The notes under the pieces are model-generated. The model was given only the letters and a program-made list of their open reading frames with translations. It did no database searches and was not told the origin of the DNA. A program made the translations under genes and the position numbers. A DNA stretch of 64,000 bases from Mesorhizobium sp. ES1-4 (GTDB lineage Bacteria; Pseudomonadota; Alphaproteobacteria; Rhizobiales; Rhizobiaceae), in assembly GCF_020164745.1 (NCBI RefSeq), contig NZ_JAIUGV010000002.1, positions 248,001-312,000 of the forward strand, written 5' to 3'. Positions 11,762 through 18,467 of the stretch are shown piece by piece (the stretch's first letter is position 1; each line of letters opens with the position of its first letter).

Positions 11762-12550
11762 TCAGCGGCGCAAGGCAGCCATGGCGGCCGCGTGAAGCTC
11801 CGGCGTCGCGGCGGCCAGCACATCGCCGCCTTTTTCCGCCGGCCCCCCGTCGAAAGTGGTGACGACGCCGCCGGCCTTCTCGATGATCGGGATCAGCGCG
11901 ACGATGTCGTAAGGTTTCAACCCCGGATCGGCGACGATATCGACGCTTCCCGAGGCGATCATGGCGAAGGCATAGCAATCGGTGCCGTAGCGGGCGAGTT
12001 GCACCTGTTTCTCGAACGCGTCATAGCGCGTGCGCGCCTCCCCCGTGAACAGCGCCGGCGTGGTGGTGAACAGCGTCGCATCCGCCAGCCTGGTCGTCTT
12101 GCGGGTCGAAAGCTTGCGCGGCCCGCCCGGTCCCTCATAGTGCGAGCCGGATTGATTGGCGTAGAATAGTTCGCCGATGAACGGCTGCGACATCATGCCG
12201 GCGACAGCGTCGCCATCGACCGTCAGGCCGACCAGCGTGCCCCATACCGGCAGGCCAGAGATGAAGGCGCGCGTGCCGTCGATCGGATCGATCACCCAGA
12301 CATGCCGGCTGGCCGTGTTTTCGCTGCCATGCTCCTCGCCAAGAATGCCATGGTCGGGATATTCGGCCGATATGAGCGCCCGAATAGCGCGCTCGGCCTC
12401 CTGGTCGGCCTCGGTGACCGGATCGAAACTGCCCTTTTCCTTGTTGGCGACCACGCCCTGCCTGCGGAAGCGCGGCAAGGTTTCGGCCGCTGCCGCTTGC
12501 GCGATGCGGCGCATGAAATCGATGCTGATGTCCAACTGATTCCCCCGCAT
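11762..12550 (-). CDS. hisN: Inositol monophosphatase-family phosphatase, probable histidinol-phosphatase
   Basis: 262 residues from ATG 12550; a TTG at 12535 with GGGGGAATC before it is an equally possible start. The protein has the full Mg2+-dependent IMPase signature: ILGEEHGSE (metal ligand Glu), WVIDPIDGTRAFISGLP (the DPIDGT motif) and the C-terminal D-containing GLKPYDIVALIPIIEKAGG. Family members hydrolyse small phosphate monoesters. The short insertions and RAFISGLPVWGTLVGL segment resemble the HisN subgroup that completes histidine synthesis by dephosphorylating histidinol phosphate in actinobacteria and many alphaproteobacteria. Inositol-1-phosphatase activity is the alternative. 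No other his gene is nearby, as is usual for hisN. Confidence 0.85.
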   Translation of the reverse strand: MRGNQLDISIDFMRRIAQAAAAETLPRFRRQGVVANKEKGSFDPVTEADQEAERAIRALISAEYPDHGILGEEHGSENTASRHVWVIDPIDGTRAFISGLPVWGTLVGLTVDGDAVAGMMSQPFIGELFYANQSGSHYEGPGGPRKLSTRKTTRLADATLFTTTPALFTGEARTRYDAFEKQVQLARYGTDCYAFAMIASGSVDIVADPGLKPYDIVALIPIIEKAGGVVTTFDGGPAEKGGDVLAAATPELHAAAMAALRR

Positions 12551-12704
12551 TGCGGTCTGTCCGAACCCGGCTCTGCCGCACCCCGTCCACCAAAACAAGG
12601 TTTTGACGCCTTGGTCGGCCCGCTCACCGTTGCCCAAATGTCACATGAGCATGACCGGAGCGTGATTTCCACATCACTCTTAATTAAAAAAGCCTGAAGG
12701 TCGC

Positions 12705-12732
12705 TTGACATTTGTGCAGCGCACAATAGGCT
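12705..12732 (+). promoter_or_regulatory. Sigma70-type promoter of the small RNA gene, with embedded palindrome
   Basis: A consensus -35 TTGACA (12705-12710) is followed after 16 bases by TAGGCT (12727-12732). The spacer holds a perfect inverted repeat TTGTGC-AGC-GCACAA (12712-12726) whose centre is TGC-N3-GCA, the form bound by PhaR/AniA-type regulators of polyhydroxybutyrate metabolism. A protein bound there would sit directly between -35 and -10. Confidence 0.65.
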
Positions 12733-12738
12733 TATCCT

Positions 12739-12823
12739 CGGACAGGTTTTCCTGTCCATGCCCTCCTTGGGCGTTTCCTCCCTAGACTTCGACCGTATCG
12801 TGAAAACGATGCGGTCTTTTTTT
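12739..12823 (+). ncRNA. Small regulatory RNA, alpha-r14 / MmgR-like
   Basis: About 85 nt between promoter and terminator, with no sensible ORF. It starts with a perfect hairpin GGACAGG-TTTT-CCTGTCC (12740-12757). An unpaired C/U-rich centre follows with two anti-Shine-Dalgarno-like motifs, CCCTCCTTGG (12761-12770) and TTTCCTCCCT (12774-12783). It ends with a 10-bp terminator hairpin GACCGTATCG-TGAAAA-CGATGCGGTC (12791-12816) and seven Ts. The layout and the CCTCC/CCTCCC motifs match the alpha-r14 (MmgR, 'cuckoo-type') trans-acting RNAs of rhizobia, and the promoter palindrome fits the AniA control described for Sinorhizobium MmgR. Family assignment is from memory of the consensus; existence as an sRNA gene is better supported than the exact family. 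Confidence 0.75.
12791..12823 (+). terminator. Rho-independent terminator of the small RNA
   Basis: Stem GACCGTATCG / CGATGCGGTC (one T-G wobble) with a TGAAAA loop, followed immediately by TTTTTTT (12817-12823). It also lies just past the stop of the leftward amidohydrolase gene, but the U-run is on the plus strand. Confidence 0.9.
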
Positions 12824-12846
12824 AAGCTGCGAATCCGGCTGCAGTT

Positions 12847-13788
12847 TCACTCCGCGGCCAGCGGCAAGTCGATGAAATGATGGTCCGGCATCGCCATCAG
12901 GTCGGCTGAAAATCGCGTCAGATCGTCGGCAAGCGCATCGAAGCCGGCGGCTTTCTCGAATGTCCGCTCATTCATGTAGAGCCCACGATTGACCTCGATC
13001 TGCAGCGCATGCAGATGCCGCGCCGGGCGGCCGTAATGTTCCGTGATGAAACCGCCGGCATAAGGCTTGTTGTGGGCAACGGTATAGCCCATCGCGGTCA
13101 GCAGGCCGATCGCGGTTTGTGTCAACGCCGCGGCCGCCGAGATGCCGAAACGGTCGCCGATGATGAAATCCGGCCGCAGGCCGCTGTCGCCGACACGGAT
13201 GCTCGCCGGCATCGAATGGCAATCGATCAGCACGGCAAAGCCGAAACGAGCGTGGGTCCTGGTCAAAAGCCGCTTCAGCGTTTCGTGATAGGGCTTGTAG
13301 ACCGCCTCGATGCGGGCAACCGCCTCGGCGAGCGGCAAGCGGCCCGCATAGATGTCGAGGCCCTCGCCCACCAGCTTCGGCACCGTGCCGAGCCCGCCGG
13401 CCACGCGCGCGGAGCGGATGTTGCAGAAGGACGGCACCGGCTCGGCGAACATGCGCGGGTCGAGTTCCCACGGCTCGCGGTTGACGTCGAGATAGGCGCG
13501 CGGAAAATTCGCCGCCAGCATTGGTGCGCCCAGCGCCACGGCGCCGCCGAACAGCTCGTCGACATAGCAATCCTCCGAGCGGCGGATTGCGTTGCGGTCG
13601 AGCCTTGCCATGGCAAGGAAGCGTTCGGGATAGTAGCGGCCGCTATGCGGTGAATTGAAGAGGAAGGGGACGCGCTGCTCGGCGCCCGACCGGATTTCGA
13701 AGGGGGGAAAGACCGAAAAATCCTCGGCTGCCGTCTTCAATTTGAACGTACCCGAAAACACCAGTGCATCATGGCATGAAACTGCCAT
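12847..13788 (-). CDS. N-formylglutamate amidohydrolase family protein
   Basis: 313 residues from ATG 13788; the first ~25 residues are poorly conserved, so a start further in is possible. Recognised by VPFLFNSPHSGRYYPERFL near the N-terminus, DVNREPWELDPRMF, VLIDCHSMPA and GGFITEHYGRP, with HALQIEVNRGLYMNE near the end. These conserved His, Glu and Asp residues form the zinc-dependent hydrolase site of the HutG family, which releases formate from N-formyl-L-glutamate in histidine degradation. No hut genes are adjacent; in rhizobia this copy is commonly next to cpdR, as here, so its real substrate may differ. A second, divergent paralogue is at 51455-52273. Confidence 0.85.
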   Translation of the reverse strand: MAVSCHDALVFSGTFKLKTAAEDFSVFPPFEIRSGAEQRVPFLFNSPHSGRYYPERFLAMARLDRNAIRRSEDCYVDELFGGAVALGAPMLAANFPRAYLDVNREPWELDPRMFAEPVPSFCNIRSARVAGGLGTVPKLVGEGLDIYAGRLPLAEAVARIEAVYKPYHETLKRLLTRTHARFGFAVLIDCHSMPASIRVGDSGLRPDFIIGDRFGISAAAALTQTAIGLLTAMGYTVAHNKPYAGGFITEHYGRPARHLHALQIEVNRGLYMNERTFEKAAGFDALADDLTRFSADLMAMPDHHFIDLPLAAE

Positions 13789-13950
13789 CTTGCCGCCCGC
13801 ATGTCCAGTATTTCAGCGGCCGTGCCGCTGGGCAAATGTGGCTCAGGCACGTCCGCGTTCACTTGATGTTTACTCTCACCTCCTCATATACAGGATGGTT
13901 AACGGGCCTGCCCCACGGCAGTCTCGGGCGGGTGATTCGGACGGGATATC

Positions 13951-14313
13951 ATGGCACGCATTCTTCTGGCGGAAGACGACGACGATATGCGTCGGTTCCT
14001 CGTCAAGGCGCTTGAGCGCGCCGGCTACCAGGTCAGCGATTTCGACAACGGCGCCAGCGCTTATGAGCGGCTGCGCGAGGAACCGTTCTCGCTGCTTTTG
14101 ACCGACATCGTCATGCCGGAGATGGACGGCATCGAACTGGCGCGCCGCGCCACCGAGATCGACCCCGATCTCAAGGTCATGTTCATCACCGGTTTCGCCG
14201 CCGTCGCGCTGAACCCGGATTCCAAGGCGCCCAAAGACGCCAAGGTGCTGTCCAAGCCCTTCCACCTGCGCGATCTCGTCAACGAGGTCGAGAAGATGCT
14301 GCAGGCGGCCTGA
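13951..14313 (+). CDS. cpdR: CpdR-type single-domain response regulator
   Basis: 120 residues, all receiver domain with no output domain. Acidic pocket Glu8-Asp9-Asp10 (LLAEDDDD), phospho-acceptor Asp52 in LLTDIVMPEMDG, Thr in MFITGF and Lys in VLSKPFHL are all present. Sequence and length match CpdR, which when unphosphorylated helps localise ClpXP to the pole and promotes proteolysis of cell-cycle proteins such as CtrA; phosphate comes through the CckA-ChpT relay. In rhizobia CpdR1 is needed for normal cell cycle and bacteroid development. The neighbours (amidohydrolase upstream, tRNA-Val downstream) match the conserved rhizobial setting as I recall it. Confidence 0.9.
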   Translation: MARILLAEDDDDMRRFLVKALERAGYQVSDFDNGASAYERLREEPFSLLLTDIVMPEMDGIELARRATEIDPDLKVMFITGFAAVALNPDSKAPKDAKVLSKPFHLRDLVNEVEKMLQAA

Positions 14314-14427: not shown

Positions 14428-14502
14428 GGGCGTGTAGCTCAGCGGGAGAGCACTGCATTGACATTGCAGGGGTCACAGGTTCAATCCCTGTCACGCCCAC
14501 CA
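14428..14502 (+). tRNA. tRNA-Val (GAC)
   Basis: 75 bases folding into a full cloverleaf. The acceptor arm GGGCGTG pairs with CACGCCC, the D-arm is GCTC...GAGC, the anticodon stem is CTGCA/TGCAG with loop TTGACAT (anticodon GAC, reading GUC), and the T-arm is ACAGG-TTCAATC-CCTGT. The CCA end is encoded (14500-14502). Confidence 0.97.
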
Positions 14503-15513: not shown

Positions 15514-17001
15514 CTATAGCCAGTATAGTCTCAGCCGGCGAAGCCGCCACCTCGCCCTCGCCAGACGACCGGTTTTCGGCTTCTTGCCCAAGCGCACCCG
15601 CAGCCTGATTCTCCTGAAGATAGGATTTCCAGGCTCGACACTGACCAGCCTTTTTGCCATCTCCACCGCCGACGTTTTGTCTTCCAGCACTTCCAGGAGG
15701 ATAAAGGCCGAGCAGGCCATGGCGTAGGGATAGCCTGCCCTGGCCGCCGCGAAGAAGACCTCGAAATCCCGAACCATCGTCAGGTAGGCGCCGATCCGCT
15801 CCGTCAGGAGGTGCATCATCGGCAGCGGGATCTTCGAGCGGCGCCGCGATTGGCTCACCATCAGCGATTTCAGGATCGCATCGCCGGTCGGATAATCGCC
15901 CTCGCGGAAACAGGTGGCCGCCATCTTCAGATCATACGCGTCGTTTTCCGGGTCCAGCGCCTGCGCGCCTCGCAGCAGCTCTTTTGCTTGCGCCGGACCG
16001 ATCTCGTCTTCGAGCGACAGGAAAGCCCACTGGTAGCCGAAGGCTGCTTCGAGCGGATGATAGGCCGCCCGATGCGCCTGCAACTCCTCCATGATGATTT
16101 CCGCCGCGCGCTGCTTGCCGAACAGCGCGCTACTGCCCATGCACGGGACATCGCCCATGACGGACGCCACCATCGCGTAGATGCTGGTGCCGGCATGGAT
16201 CTGCTGGCACCTTGCCATCAGCCCCATTTCGAAAAACGCACTGAGGGCTTCCTCGCCCCGGAAGTCGCCAGCCCCGAAATCGTCAGTCCGCAAGGCTCCG
16301 GTTTCGGCGCCGAGATAGTCGAGCGTCGCGCGATCCTGGCCGACAAGAAGCGTTGTCATGCCTTTCGAGGCGAGTTCCGTGATGATCGCCTTCGCCAGCG
16401 TCGAAGGGATGACCTTGTCGGCGAAAATCAGCCTTCTGCGATATTGGCCACGGACGATGTCGCCGCTGCGAAGATGCAAGGCGGCCATCGGGCCGGGAAA
16501 GCGGCATTTGCCGGCCGCGTCCAGCGCCTGCCGCACGGCCGGCGCGAACCCGAAGGCCCGCAGTGTCTCGGATCGTCGAACCGGTTGGACACCTTCGTCG
16601 CGGAAAAAATCGAGTACGTCGAAGTCGTCGCAGATCCAGCCACGCAGCTTTCCCTCCCTTGCTGTCGCTGCAAGGTCGGACGGCGCGAAGGCGGAACGGC
16701 CAAGCACGCCCATGCCGGCAGCGTCGATCTTGTCGCCCAACCAATGCTTCTCGATGAAGTCGGCCGAAAAGATCTTCGTGACCACATCGACGGTATGGGA
16801 TCCTTCGTCGGTAACATCCCTGCTGCTCCAGGTGAAGCCGAAGCGGTAGCCGAGCCTGTCGGCAAGGGATTTTGCGTTGGCCATCGCCAGCAAGCGACCG
16901 CCCAGCCCGTCGCTCCGGTTGACCGCAATCAACATCGAGTTGTCTTCGAGCGCCCCCGAGCCGAAGGCCGCCTTTTTCGAGGTGGCGGAAAAACGATGCA
17001 T
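15514..17001 (-). CDS. Putative fucosyltransferase-like GT-B protein with C-terminal TPR-like part (paralogue B)
   Basis: 495 residues from ATG 17001 (GGAAAG upstream); ATG 16935 is an alternative. Residues ~24-300 show a pattern shared by GDP-fucose transferases of the NodZ/FUT8 and POFUT type: an N-terminal SDGLGGRLLAMANAKSLADR loop, the donor-binding ALHLRSGDIVRG (His176, Arg178, Asp181) and a later CQQIHAGTSIYAMVASVM helix. A region with TPR-like spacing (LDPENDAYDLKMAATCF, GDYPTGDAILKSLM) and a very basic C-terminus follow. It is a tandem paralogue of the gene at 17043-18467. Position directly behind GDP-L-fucose synthesis genes makes fucosyl transfer the best guess. Acceptor unknown; the family call is motif-based inference. 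Confidence 0.6.
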   Translation of the reverse strand: MHRFSATSKKAAFGSGALEDNSMLIAVNRSDGLGGRLLAMANAKSLADRLGYRFGFTWSSRDVTDEGSHTVDVVTKIFSADFIEKHWLGDKIDAAGMGVLGRSAFAPSDLAATAREGKLRGWICDDFDVLDFFRDEGVQPVRRSETLRAFGFAPAVRQALDAAGKCRFPGPMAALHLRSGDIVRGQYRRRLIFADKVIPSTLAKAIITELASKGMTTLLVGQDRATLDYLGAETGALRTDDFGAGDFRGEEALSAFFEMGLMARCQQIHAGTSIYAMVASVMGDVPCMGSSALFGKQRAAEIIMEELQAHRAAYHPLEAAFGYQWAFLSLEDEIGPAQAKELLRGAQALDPENDAYDLKMAATCFREGDYPTGDAILKSLMVSQSRRRSKIPLPMMHLLTERIGAYLTMVRDFEVFFAAARAGYPYAMACSAFILLEVLEDKTSAVEMAKRLVSVEPGNPIFRRIRLRVRLGKKPKTGRLARARWRLRRLRLYWL

Positions 17002-17042: not shown

Positions 17043-18467
17043 CTAGCTGCGCAAGGGAGAACCGTCATTTGCCGTCGCGGCTGTCCGGACCGTCAATTCG
17101 ATTTCCCGAAAAAGCCGGTTGGCGGGTTCCGCCGTGAGGGATAGCGCCACCATTGACAGGGCGGCCTCGGTTCTGCCCAGAGCCGAGTGAAGGATTTGGG
17201 CCGAGCATGCCGCTGCGTAGGGATAGCCGGCATTGGCCGCGACAAAGTAGAGTTCGAAATCACCTGCCATCATCCGGCCGCGCCATGAGGGAGCGGTCAG
17301 GACGTCGAGGATAGGCATGGAATTTTCGGTGCCGGCATCGATTTCCCCGAGCATGAACGCTTTCAGAATTGCTTCGCCGTCGCCAAAATTCCTTTCCCGA
17401 AAATAGCCGGCTGCCAGCTTCAGCGCGTAGGCGGGATTTTGTGGATCGAGCGCGGCCGCCTTTTCGAGAATTCCCCTCGCCTGCGCTGGGCCAATGCTGT
17501 TTTCCATCAGCATGATGGCTGACTGATAACCGTAGGCTGCCTCCAGCGGATGGTAGTCCGATTGCCGAGCCTTCAATTCATCCAGGATGGCCGCGGCGGT
17601 GCCGCGAGCGCCGAACACGGCCTTTGGGCGTAGGACCCGGATCCCTCCCATCACCGACGCAATTGTCGCGAACACGCTGCTTCCCGCATGGATTTGCCGA
17701 CACCGAGCCATCAATGCCATTTCGAAAAACGCCTTGAGTGTCTCGTCCTCGAACTGTTCCGCCCCGAAATCATCGGAGAGGAAGGCTCCGGTCTCCGATT
17801 TCAGATAGTCGAGCGTTGCCCGGTCCTGGCCGATCACCAGCGTCGCCAAGCCCTTTGACGCCAGCTTCGATACGATCGCCCTGGCTAGCGGCGCGGGAAC
17901 GACCTTGTCGCCAAACGCCATCTGCGAGCGGTAGTTACCATGGATGATGTCGCCGCTGCGCAGATGCAGAGCGACCATCGGCCGTGGAAATCGGAACCCG
18001 TGGGCGGCAGCTATGGTTGCTTTTACCGACTCGGAAAAACCAAGCGTACCAAACGTCCGATGCCGCGATCGGGTGGGCCGGTAGGCTGGCAGCAACCCTT
18101 TGAACCAACCCTGCCGGAACGATCTCAGGATACGGAAATCATCGCAGATCCATCCTTGGAAGCCGTTGCGATCAGCATCGGCCGCCAGACTGTCCCGCGT
18201 GAATGGTGTCCCGCCGAGAACACCGAACCGGACTGCGTCGATCTTCTCGCCCAGCCAGTGTCGTTCGACAAAAGCCGGGGCAAAAACCTTGTCGACAGAA
18301 TCGACGATGTGGAATTGCATGTCGTCGATGGATCGGCGGTTCCAGGTGAAGCCGAAGCGACATCCCAGTTTGTCGGCGAGACATTTTGCGTTGACCATGG
18401 CAAGCAGGCGCCCTCCAAGGCCGTCTGCCCTGGTCGCCGCCAATGTCTTCCTGGAGAAATCACTCAA
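17043..18467 (-). CDS. Putative fucosyltransferase-like GT-B protein with C-terminal TPR-like part (paralogue A)
   Basis: 474 residues from a TTG start at 18467, seven bases after the fcl stop, so probably translationally coupled. It aligns end to end with paralogue B: ADGLGGRLLAMVNAKCLADK (14-33), HWLGEKIDAVRFGVLGG, GWICDDF, MVALHLRSGDIIHGNY (His168, Arg170, Asp173), LVIGQDRATLDYL and CRQIHAGSSVFATIASVMGG. The H-x-R-x-G-D motif followed by a Ser-containing helix is the donor site of GT23/GT65-like fucosyltransferases. The C-terminal third has TPR-like repeats (AAALDPQNPAYALKLAAGYF). No signal peptide is seen, so it would act in the cytosol on a lipid-linked or protein acceptor. GDP-fucose is the probable donor from context. 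Confidence 0.6.
   Translation of the reverse strand: MSDFSRKTLAATRADGLGGRLLAMVNAKCLADKLGCRFGFTWNRRSIDDMQFHIVDSVDKVFAPAFVERHWLGEKIDAVRFGVLGGTPFTRDSLAADADRNGFQGWICDDFRILRSFRQGWFKGLLPAYRPTRSRHRTFGTLGFSESVKATIAAAHGFRFPRPMVALHLRSGDIIHGNYRSQMAFGDKVVPAPLARAIVSKLASKGLATLVIGQDRATLDYLKSETGAFLSDDFGAEQFEDETLKAFFEMALMARCRQIHAGSSVFATIASVMGGIRVLRPKAVFGARGTAAAILDELKARQSDYHPLEAAYGYQSAIMLMENSIGPAQARGILEKAAALDPQNPAYALKLAAGYFRERNFGDGEAILKAFMLGEIDAGTENSMPILDVLTAPSWRGRMMAGDFELYFVAANAGYPYAAACSAQILHSALGRTEAALSMVALSLTAEPANRLFREIELTVRTAATANDGSPLRS

Follow-up and report, generated by a model that had tools for sequence, protein, structure and literature searches.

An MmgR small RNA gene of Mesorhizobium with a PhaR-type operator in its promoter, and the keeping of that operator across Rhizobiales

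In the stretch of Mesorhizobium sp. ES1-4 DNA examined here (64,000 nucleotides, hereafter the window), a gap between two minus-strand genes holds a promoter-like sequence, a palindrome, a hairpin and a terminator, and the locus raises the question of which RNA is made there and which regulator its promoter serves. We conclude that the segment is an mmgR gene, very probably repressed by PhaR (AniA) together with the phasin gene, released by PHB and acting as a brake on granule formation. The arrangement of a PhaR operator at mmgR is already known from Sinorhizobium meliloti, where PhaR binding, repression and the effect on PHB and phasins have been shown by others; the present organism is a new host. 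New here is a quantified account of how widely, and in which form, the PhaR-type site of mmgR is kept.

The RNA and its flanking genes are laid out as follows.

11762–12637, minus strand: inositol monophosphatase family gene beside mmgR (PF00459, 6.2e-50)
12740–12823, plus strand: MmgR small RNA (alpha-r8, RF00519), from covariance match and fold, with an inferred start at about 12740–12742
12740–12757, plus strand: 5′ hairpin, from the fold; outside the pairs of the Rfam model
12758–12774, plus strand: weak second hairpin holding the first CCUCC-type motif (fold, Rfam scan)
12774–12783, plus strand: family 10-mer UUUCCUCCCU, anti-Shine-Dalgarno pairing region (sequence, likeness to Caulobacter SisA)
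12791–12823, plus strand: intrinsic terminator, an 11-pair stem plus seven T (fold, terminator scan, covariation)
12847–13788, minus strand: N-formylglutamate amidohydrolase (FGase) gene (PF05013, 3e-75)

The original prediction of an MmgR-type small RNA is borne out by cmscan, which matches RF00519 to plus-strand positions 12753–12830 at 65.3 bits (1.6e-13), where the cut-off is 41; scanning 12600–12900 with the Rfam library brought no other family to its gathering score. The model, named 'suhB' in Rfam, begins inside the first hairpin of the RNA, and we place the start at about 12740–12742 because the distance from operator to start is 13 bases in S. meliloti. For the resulting 84-nt RNA the predicted fold (−41.6 kcal/mol; z = −7.7; equally stable shuffles, 0 of 200) consists, in order, of the 5′ hairpin, the weak hairpin, an unpaired part that takes in most of UUUCCUCCCU, and the terminator. 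Both the 5′ hairpin and the strong terminator with seven T had been foreseen: the terminator stem spans 12791–12816, the T run follows at 12817–12823, and the stem pairs are kept in relatives through changes on both sides. When sequences are folded singly, the 20 bases matching the 5′ hairpin give a fold at least as stable as −4 kcal/mol in 95 of 108 relatives, and 33 different 5′ arms occur; in the consensus fold of a common alignment the first stem does not appear. Two unpaired CCTCC-type motifs had also been proposed, of which the second (12774–12783) is essentially unpaired but the first lies in the hairpin 12758–12774. As for the claimed lack of an ORF in 12705–12823, the sense strand has none of at least 80 amino acids, but a mechanical antisense ORF (12292–12759) overlaps the 5′ part. 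Given the RF00519 match, the fold and the conservation of hairpin and terminator, the window RNA is MmgR, of the alpha-r8 family.

The surroundings agree with those of known relatives. The 10-mer UUUCCUCCCU stands after the weak hairpin as it does in alpha-r8 RNAs, to which it is common, and serves as a pairing site in SisA of Caulobacter crescentus (PMC12559287). SisA–D of that species belong to the same family and share the 10-mer, sisA adjoins an FGase gene, and FGase is the usual neighbour of alpha-r8 RNAs (PMC12559287), a linkage found again at the window mmgR (PF05013 at 12847–13788). In Mesorhizobium huakuii 7653R, MH_s24 likewise belongs to RF00519 and is flanked by two minus-strand genes; a table row of the source gives it a 71-nt RNA-seq product (PMC5596092). 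Expressed alpha-r8 RNAs are expected to measure about 77–85 nt. Among the matches listed, the nearest relatives over 11762–13800 belong to Mesorhizobium, the identity reaching 89.5% (L104).

Elsewhere in the same genome, a weak RF00519 match (L037 1501–1552, G000 C43:349069–349120) scores 34.2 bits against the cut-off of 41, includes part of the alpha-r8 core and shows no TGC-N3-GCA within 75 bases upstream; it is possibly a decayed alpha-r8 copy. Another, on a minus strand, reaches 33.7 bits, also under the cut-off. Past the FGase gene and before a tRNA at 14428, 13951–14313 (plus strand) encodes a 120-aa single-domain response regulator (PF00072). Further on, 15514–17001 and 17043–18467 (minus strand) are adjacent look-alike ORFs of 495 and 474 aa that both carry GLGGRLLAM and RFGFTW close to the N terminus, neither with a Pfam match at 0.001.

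Three elements upstream of the RNA make up its promoter.

12705–12710, plus strand: −35 element TTGACA of the mmgR promoter (sequence; TTGAC positions kept in 69–73 of 73 aligned host-family promoters)
12709–12729, plus strand: PhaR (AniA)-type operator, 21-mer CATTTGTGCAGCGCACAATAG (matrix score, conservation)
12727–12732, plus strand: weak −10 TAGGCT after a 16-base spacer (aligned position in 73 host-family promoters)

The consensus −35 and the perfect palindrome, TTGTGC-AGC-GCACAA at 12712–12726, are present as described, the palindrome filling the space between −35 and −10. The 16-base spacer holds if TAGGCT is the −10, but that hexamer is weak: a strict sigma-70 consensus scan found no promoter at mmgR, and the commonest letters at this position across the 73 aligned host-family promoters are TAAACT. 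With a matrix built from 11 published S. meliloti sites, leaving out that of mmgR, the window operator scores 16.1 bits and S. meliloti's own mmgR site 17.1. The stretch TGCAGCGCA fits the core YGCRNYGCR with AT-rich arms of the S. meliloti PhaR consensus, given in full as WNWD2NYGCRNYGCRNH2WNW in the cited part of PMC12542648. The genome also has phaR (TIGR01848, 5.8e-43; also PF07879), phaC and a phasin gene, so the proposed PhaR/AniA-like box in the promoter is upheld. S. meliloti MmgR shares the RNA family, the 10-mer core, the terminator and a PhaR site inside the promoter; unlike the perfect palindrome here, with its right half GCACAA, the site there reads TTGTGC-ACC-GCAGCA (PMC12542648, as excerpted).

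How far the operator is kept was read in the 77 bases that precede the RNA core. A total of 206 copies, drawn from 195 genomes and with at most three differences in the 21-base core, made up the sample, which covers part of the order and of the host's family and includes 160 chosen stretches; copies with more differences, or too near a stretch end (four such cases printed), were dropped before counting. Most genomes with only sub-cut-off RF00519 matches fall outside it, the phaR-negative G269 and G274 included, as do 11 phaR-negative genomes whose loci had no core within three differences. Within this sample, the alpha-r8 promoter carries a box of at least 10 bits in 161 of 188 phaR-positive Rhizobiales genomes versus 18 of the 722 control windows that these loci supplied, and one of at least 8 bits in 170 of the 188. 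A separate count with controls taken further upstream gave 160/201 versus 1/71. The host's family accounts for 82 of the phaR-positive genomes, 74 of them with a box of at least 10 bits. The 27 of 188 below this score, eight of the 82 in the host's family among them, comprise some just under it and others plainly lacking a box. Of the eight, G234 stands at 9.2 bits and scores are low in G200, G215, G220, G233, G277, G292 and G315, and G233 is without a box despite having phaR and phaC. In Caulobacter, by contrast, no motif common to the four SisA–D promoters is reported and a sponge RNA, CrfA, acts on these RNAs (PMC12559287); the PhaR operator is therefore not universal in alpha-r8.

Presence of the box was also read in nine phaR-negative genomes, seven from the first sample plus G163 and G123, added later. 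It falls below 10 bits in six and reaches that score in three (G228, G026 and G123). The six genomes that are at least 98% complete and lack both phaR and phaC (PF07167) all lack a box of 10 bits, with best scores of 0.0 (G214), −3.6 (G314), 6.5 (G291), −3.4 (G022), 3.4 (G163) and 8.5 bits (G182), and they span four genera. Before G163 and G123 were added, and with kinship ignored, the Fisher p was 0.006 in the host's family and 0.0015 overall. Two of the genomes that keep the box with phaR not found are 56% (G123, 24.4 bits, with phaC) and 67% (G026) complete. The third, G228, has two phaC and two phasin matches and an mmgR operator of 20.5 bits in an assembly of 140 contigs, 96% complete, in which neither TIGR01848 nor PF07879 matches any phaR; an assembly gap or a replaced regulator is perhaps the reason. 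A separate case is G158, a congener of G182, in which phaR is present, phaC was not found by PF07167 and the box is kept at 15.9 bits; PhaR may have a role there without PHB synthesis.

The same layout precedes phasin genes. In S. meliloti, whose PhaR (AniA) regulon shares the operator consensus and counts both phasin and mmgR among its targets, gel shifts place PhaR on the promoters of mmgR, phaP1, phaP2, phaZ and SMa1961, and the shifts disappeared once the palindromes were excluded or mutated (PMC12542648, in the part cited); that regulon is known by experiment, unlike ours, which is read from sequence alone. The phasin promoter of the window genome reads TTGAC-TTT-TTGTGC-AGT-GCACAA, with a second box 22 bases on. 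Scanning genome contigs for TTGAC-N1-4-TTGTGC-N3-GCACAA yielded at least 116 stretches, which among the matches listed divide into 42 alpha-r8, 32 phasin and 42 other. Eighty of these listed matches are titled: all 51 with Rhizobiales titles are alpha-r8 (29) or phasin (22), and the 29 with other titles are one phasin, from Caulobacter, and 28 other. Searched for independently of the box, phasins were found in 86 of 121 host-family genomes; in the best 30 matches, 30 of 30 loci have an upstream box of at least 10 bits and 21 of 30 a second of at least 8 bits. The two classes of box differ in the base after GCA, which is C in 24 of 73 mmgR boxes versus 24 of 30 phasin boxes (p = 2e-5, not corrected for kinship).

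The strongest competitor to PhaR control sees in the conserved element chiefly a site responding to nitrogen status, whose left half, TTGTGCA, is linked to NtrC and resembles a PhaR half-site, PhaR being secondary. A 2018 paper in Microbiology on mmgR reportedly found the heptamer TTGTGCA to be needed for nitrogen induction, which counts for this reading, as does the pattern in the aligned host-family mmgR promoters, 73 selected for a box of at least 10 bits at the usual place: the left arm is the stricter of the two, nearly invariant, and the right arm is loose. In S. meliloti, moreover, control by NtrC and AniA together rests on a dyad between −35 and −10 (PMC8401924, as excerpted), and NtrC, or nitrogen status, is a positive control of mmgR (PMC7143759 and PMC8401924, in part). 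This positive control was left out of the original prediction, whose ascription of mmgR to AniA otherwise finds its published S. meliloti operator matched here. Yet the left half too is lost in G214, G314 and G291, the host-family genomes that lack phaR and phaC and in which a PhaR-independent site should have stayed, and phasin genes are preceded by the same layout; we regard a primarily nitrogen-responsive site as unlikely.

Far less probable still is that the palindrome is chance, or merely promoter-shaped sequence that no regulator reads. Numbers of palindromes do favour it: TGTGC-N3-GCACA occurs at 4 places in the 6.46-Mb genome versus 3 for the reversed control pattern, and loose matches (at most two mismatches) number 2 in the window versus 2.34 expected. 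Rarity of the palindrome, hardly commoner than the control pattern, was accordingly dropped as evidence; promoter position and conservation carry the weight, not the palindrome alone. Against chance stand the S. meliloti gel shifts (PMC12542648, as excerpted), the excess over control windows in the same loci (161/188 versus 18/722) and the loss of the box in six of six near-complete genomes without phaR and phaC. In the 73 aligned promoters, chosen as they were for a box of at least 10 bits, the half-site letters GC and GCA are invariant (73/73), with the T of TGC kept in 71. Two more perfect TGTGC-N3-GCACA sites in the genome (L033 1501–1513 and L034 1501–1513; G000 C2:32978 and C8:116002) lie near ORFs that by eye encode an efflux membrane-fusion protein and a cytochrome o oxidase subunit II/MFS transporter pair, and are possible extra PhaR targets.

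An alpha-r14 (NfeR1) identity, the label first attached to this RNA, has in its favour that alpha-r8 and alpha-r14 are both small RNAs with anti-Shine-Dalgarno motifs. It is contradicted by the RF00519 match at 1.6e-13, with no other family of the Rfam library used at its gathering score in 12600–12900, and by a review that places MmgR in alpha-r8 and NfeR1 (Smr14C2) in alpha-r14 (PMC7143759, in the portion cited).

We return to PhaR control, under which the locus would work as follows. From a housekeeping promoter an RNA of about 84 nt would be made. When PHB is scarce, free PhaR (AniA) would occupy the palindrome that separates −35 from −10, shutting out RNA polymerase, and the phasin gene of the same genome, with its box at the same place, would be blocked too. 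As PHB builds up, granules would titrate PhaR, as in a published model (PMC12542648, in part), and the mmgR and phasin promoters would both open. The anti-Shine-Dalgarno core of MmgR would then pair with target mRNAs, probably including that of phasin, and limit granule formation, the brake being made together with the thing braked; NtrC would add nitrogen control. Of the conserved direct repression originally suggested, the wide conservation of the site stands, but PhaR binding and repression in this organism are inferred, and the gel shift for S. meliloti had already been published.

The phasin mRNA of the window genome is a candidate direct target, on mixed evidence. The MmgR core is predicted to pair with its ribosome site and start codon (AAGGGA, GGAAAUG, CCC); the plain duplex energy is −25.9 kcal/mol, as strong in 0 of 249 control starts, and with the cost of opening structure it is −11.4, as strong in 4 of 249. 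For 27 phasins of Mesorhizobium and near relatives, 8 of 249 controls attain the median of −19.5 kcal/mol at their first start, and 24 of 249 when the best among several starts counts; with opening cost, 35 of 249 controls match the median of 26 phasins. Across the host's family, 30 phasins compared with 32 window starts showed no excess of pairing (p = 0.73), which limits the phasin lead to the genus Mesorhizobium. In S. meliloti, deletion of the mmgR core raised PhaP1 and PhaP2 with mRNA unaffected, an effect that may be direct or indirect (PMC8401924, as excerpted); no direct MmgR target has been described so far, according to the relevant parts of the review (PMC7143759) and the Caulobacter paper (PMC12559287).

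Operator number also varies among the small RNA promoters. Counting as a second box one of at least 6 bits lying at least 15 bases from the first, and among genomes having a box, we find it in 55 of 88 alpha-r8 promoters outside the host's family versus 5 of 75 inside; outside, it stands 19–22 bases away, some two turns of the helix, in 51 of the 55 cases. There it extends over both the probable RNA start and the 5′ arm of the RNA's first hairpin, and its conservation may for this reason be partly due to the RNA itself. No description of a two-box alpha-r8 promoter was found in the literature searched, partial texts included, the 2016–2018 mmgR papers lying outside its reach. That operator number sets the order of events and that, in Mesorhizobium, MmgR also targets phasin mRNA directly, binding across its ribosome site and start codon, is a joint proposal that we put forward tentatively, as the less probable outcome.

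With these results, what was known from a single species becomes a rule that can be tested throughout an order: granule coat protein and restraining small RNA both appear to be under the control of the PHB sensor PhaR, and those near-complete genomes examined that have neither PHB synthase nor PhaR lack the site too. In addition, phasin mRNA is put forward as a candidate for direct targeting by MmgR. If the joint proposal is true, titration of PhaR by PHB would open the single-box small RNA promoter before the double-box phasin promoter; the brake would be in place ahead of its target, and phasin would be the first direct MmgR target shown.
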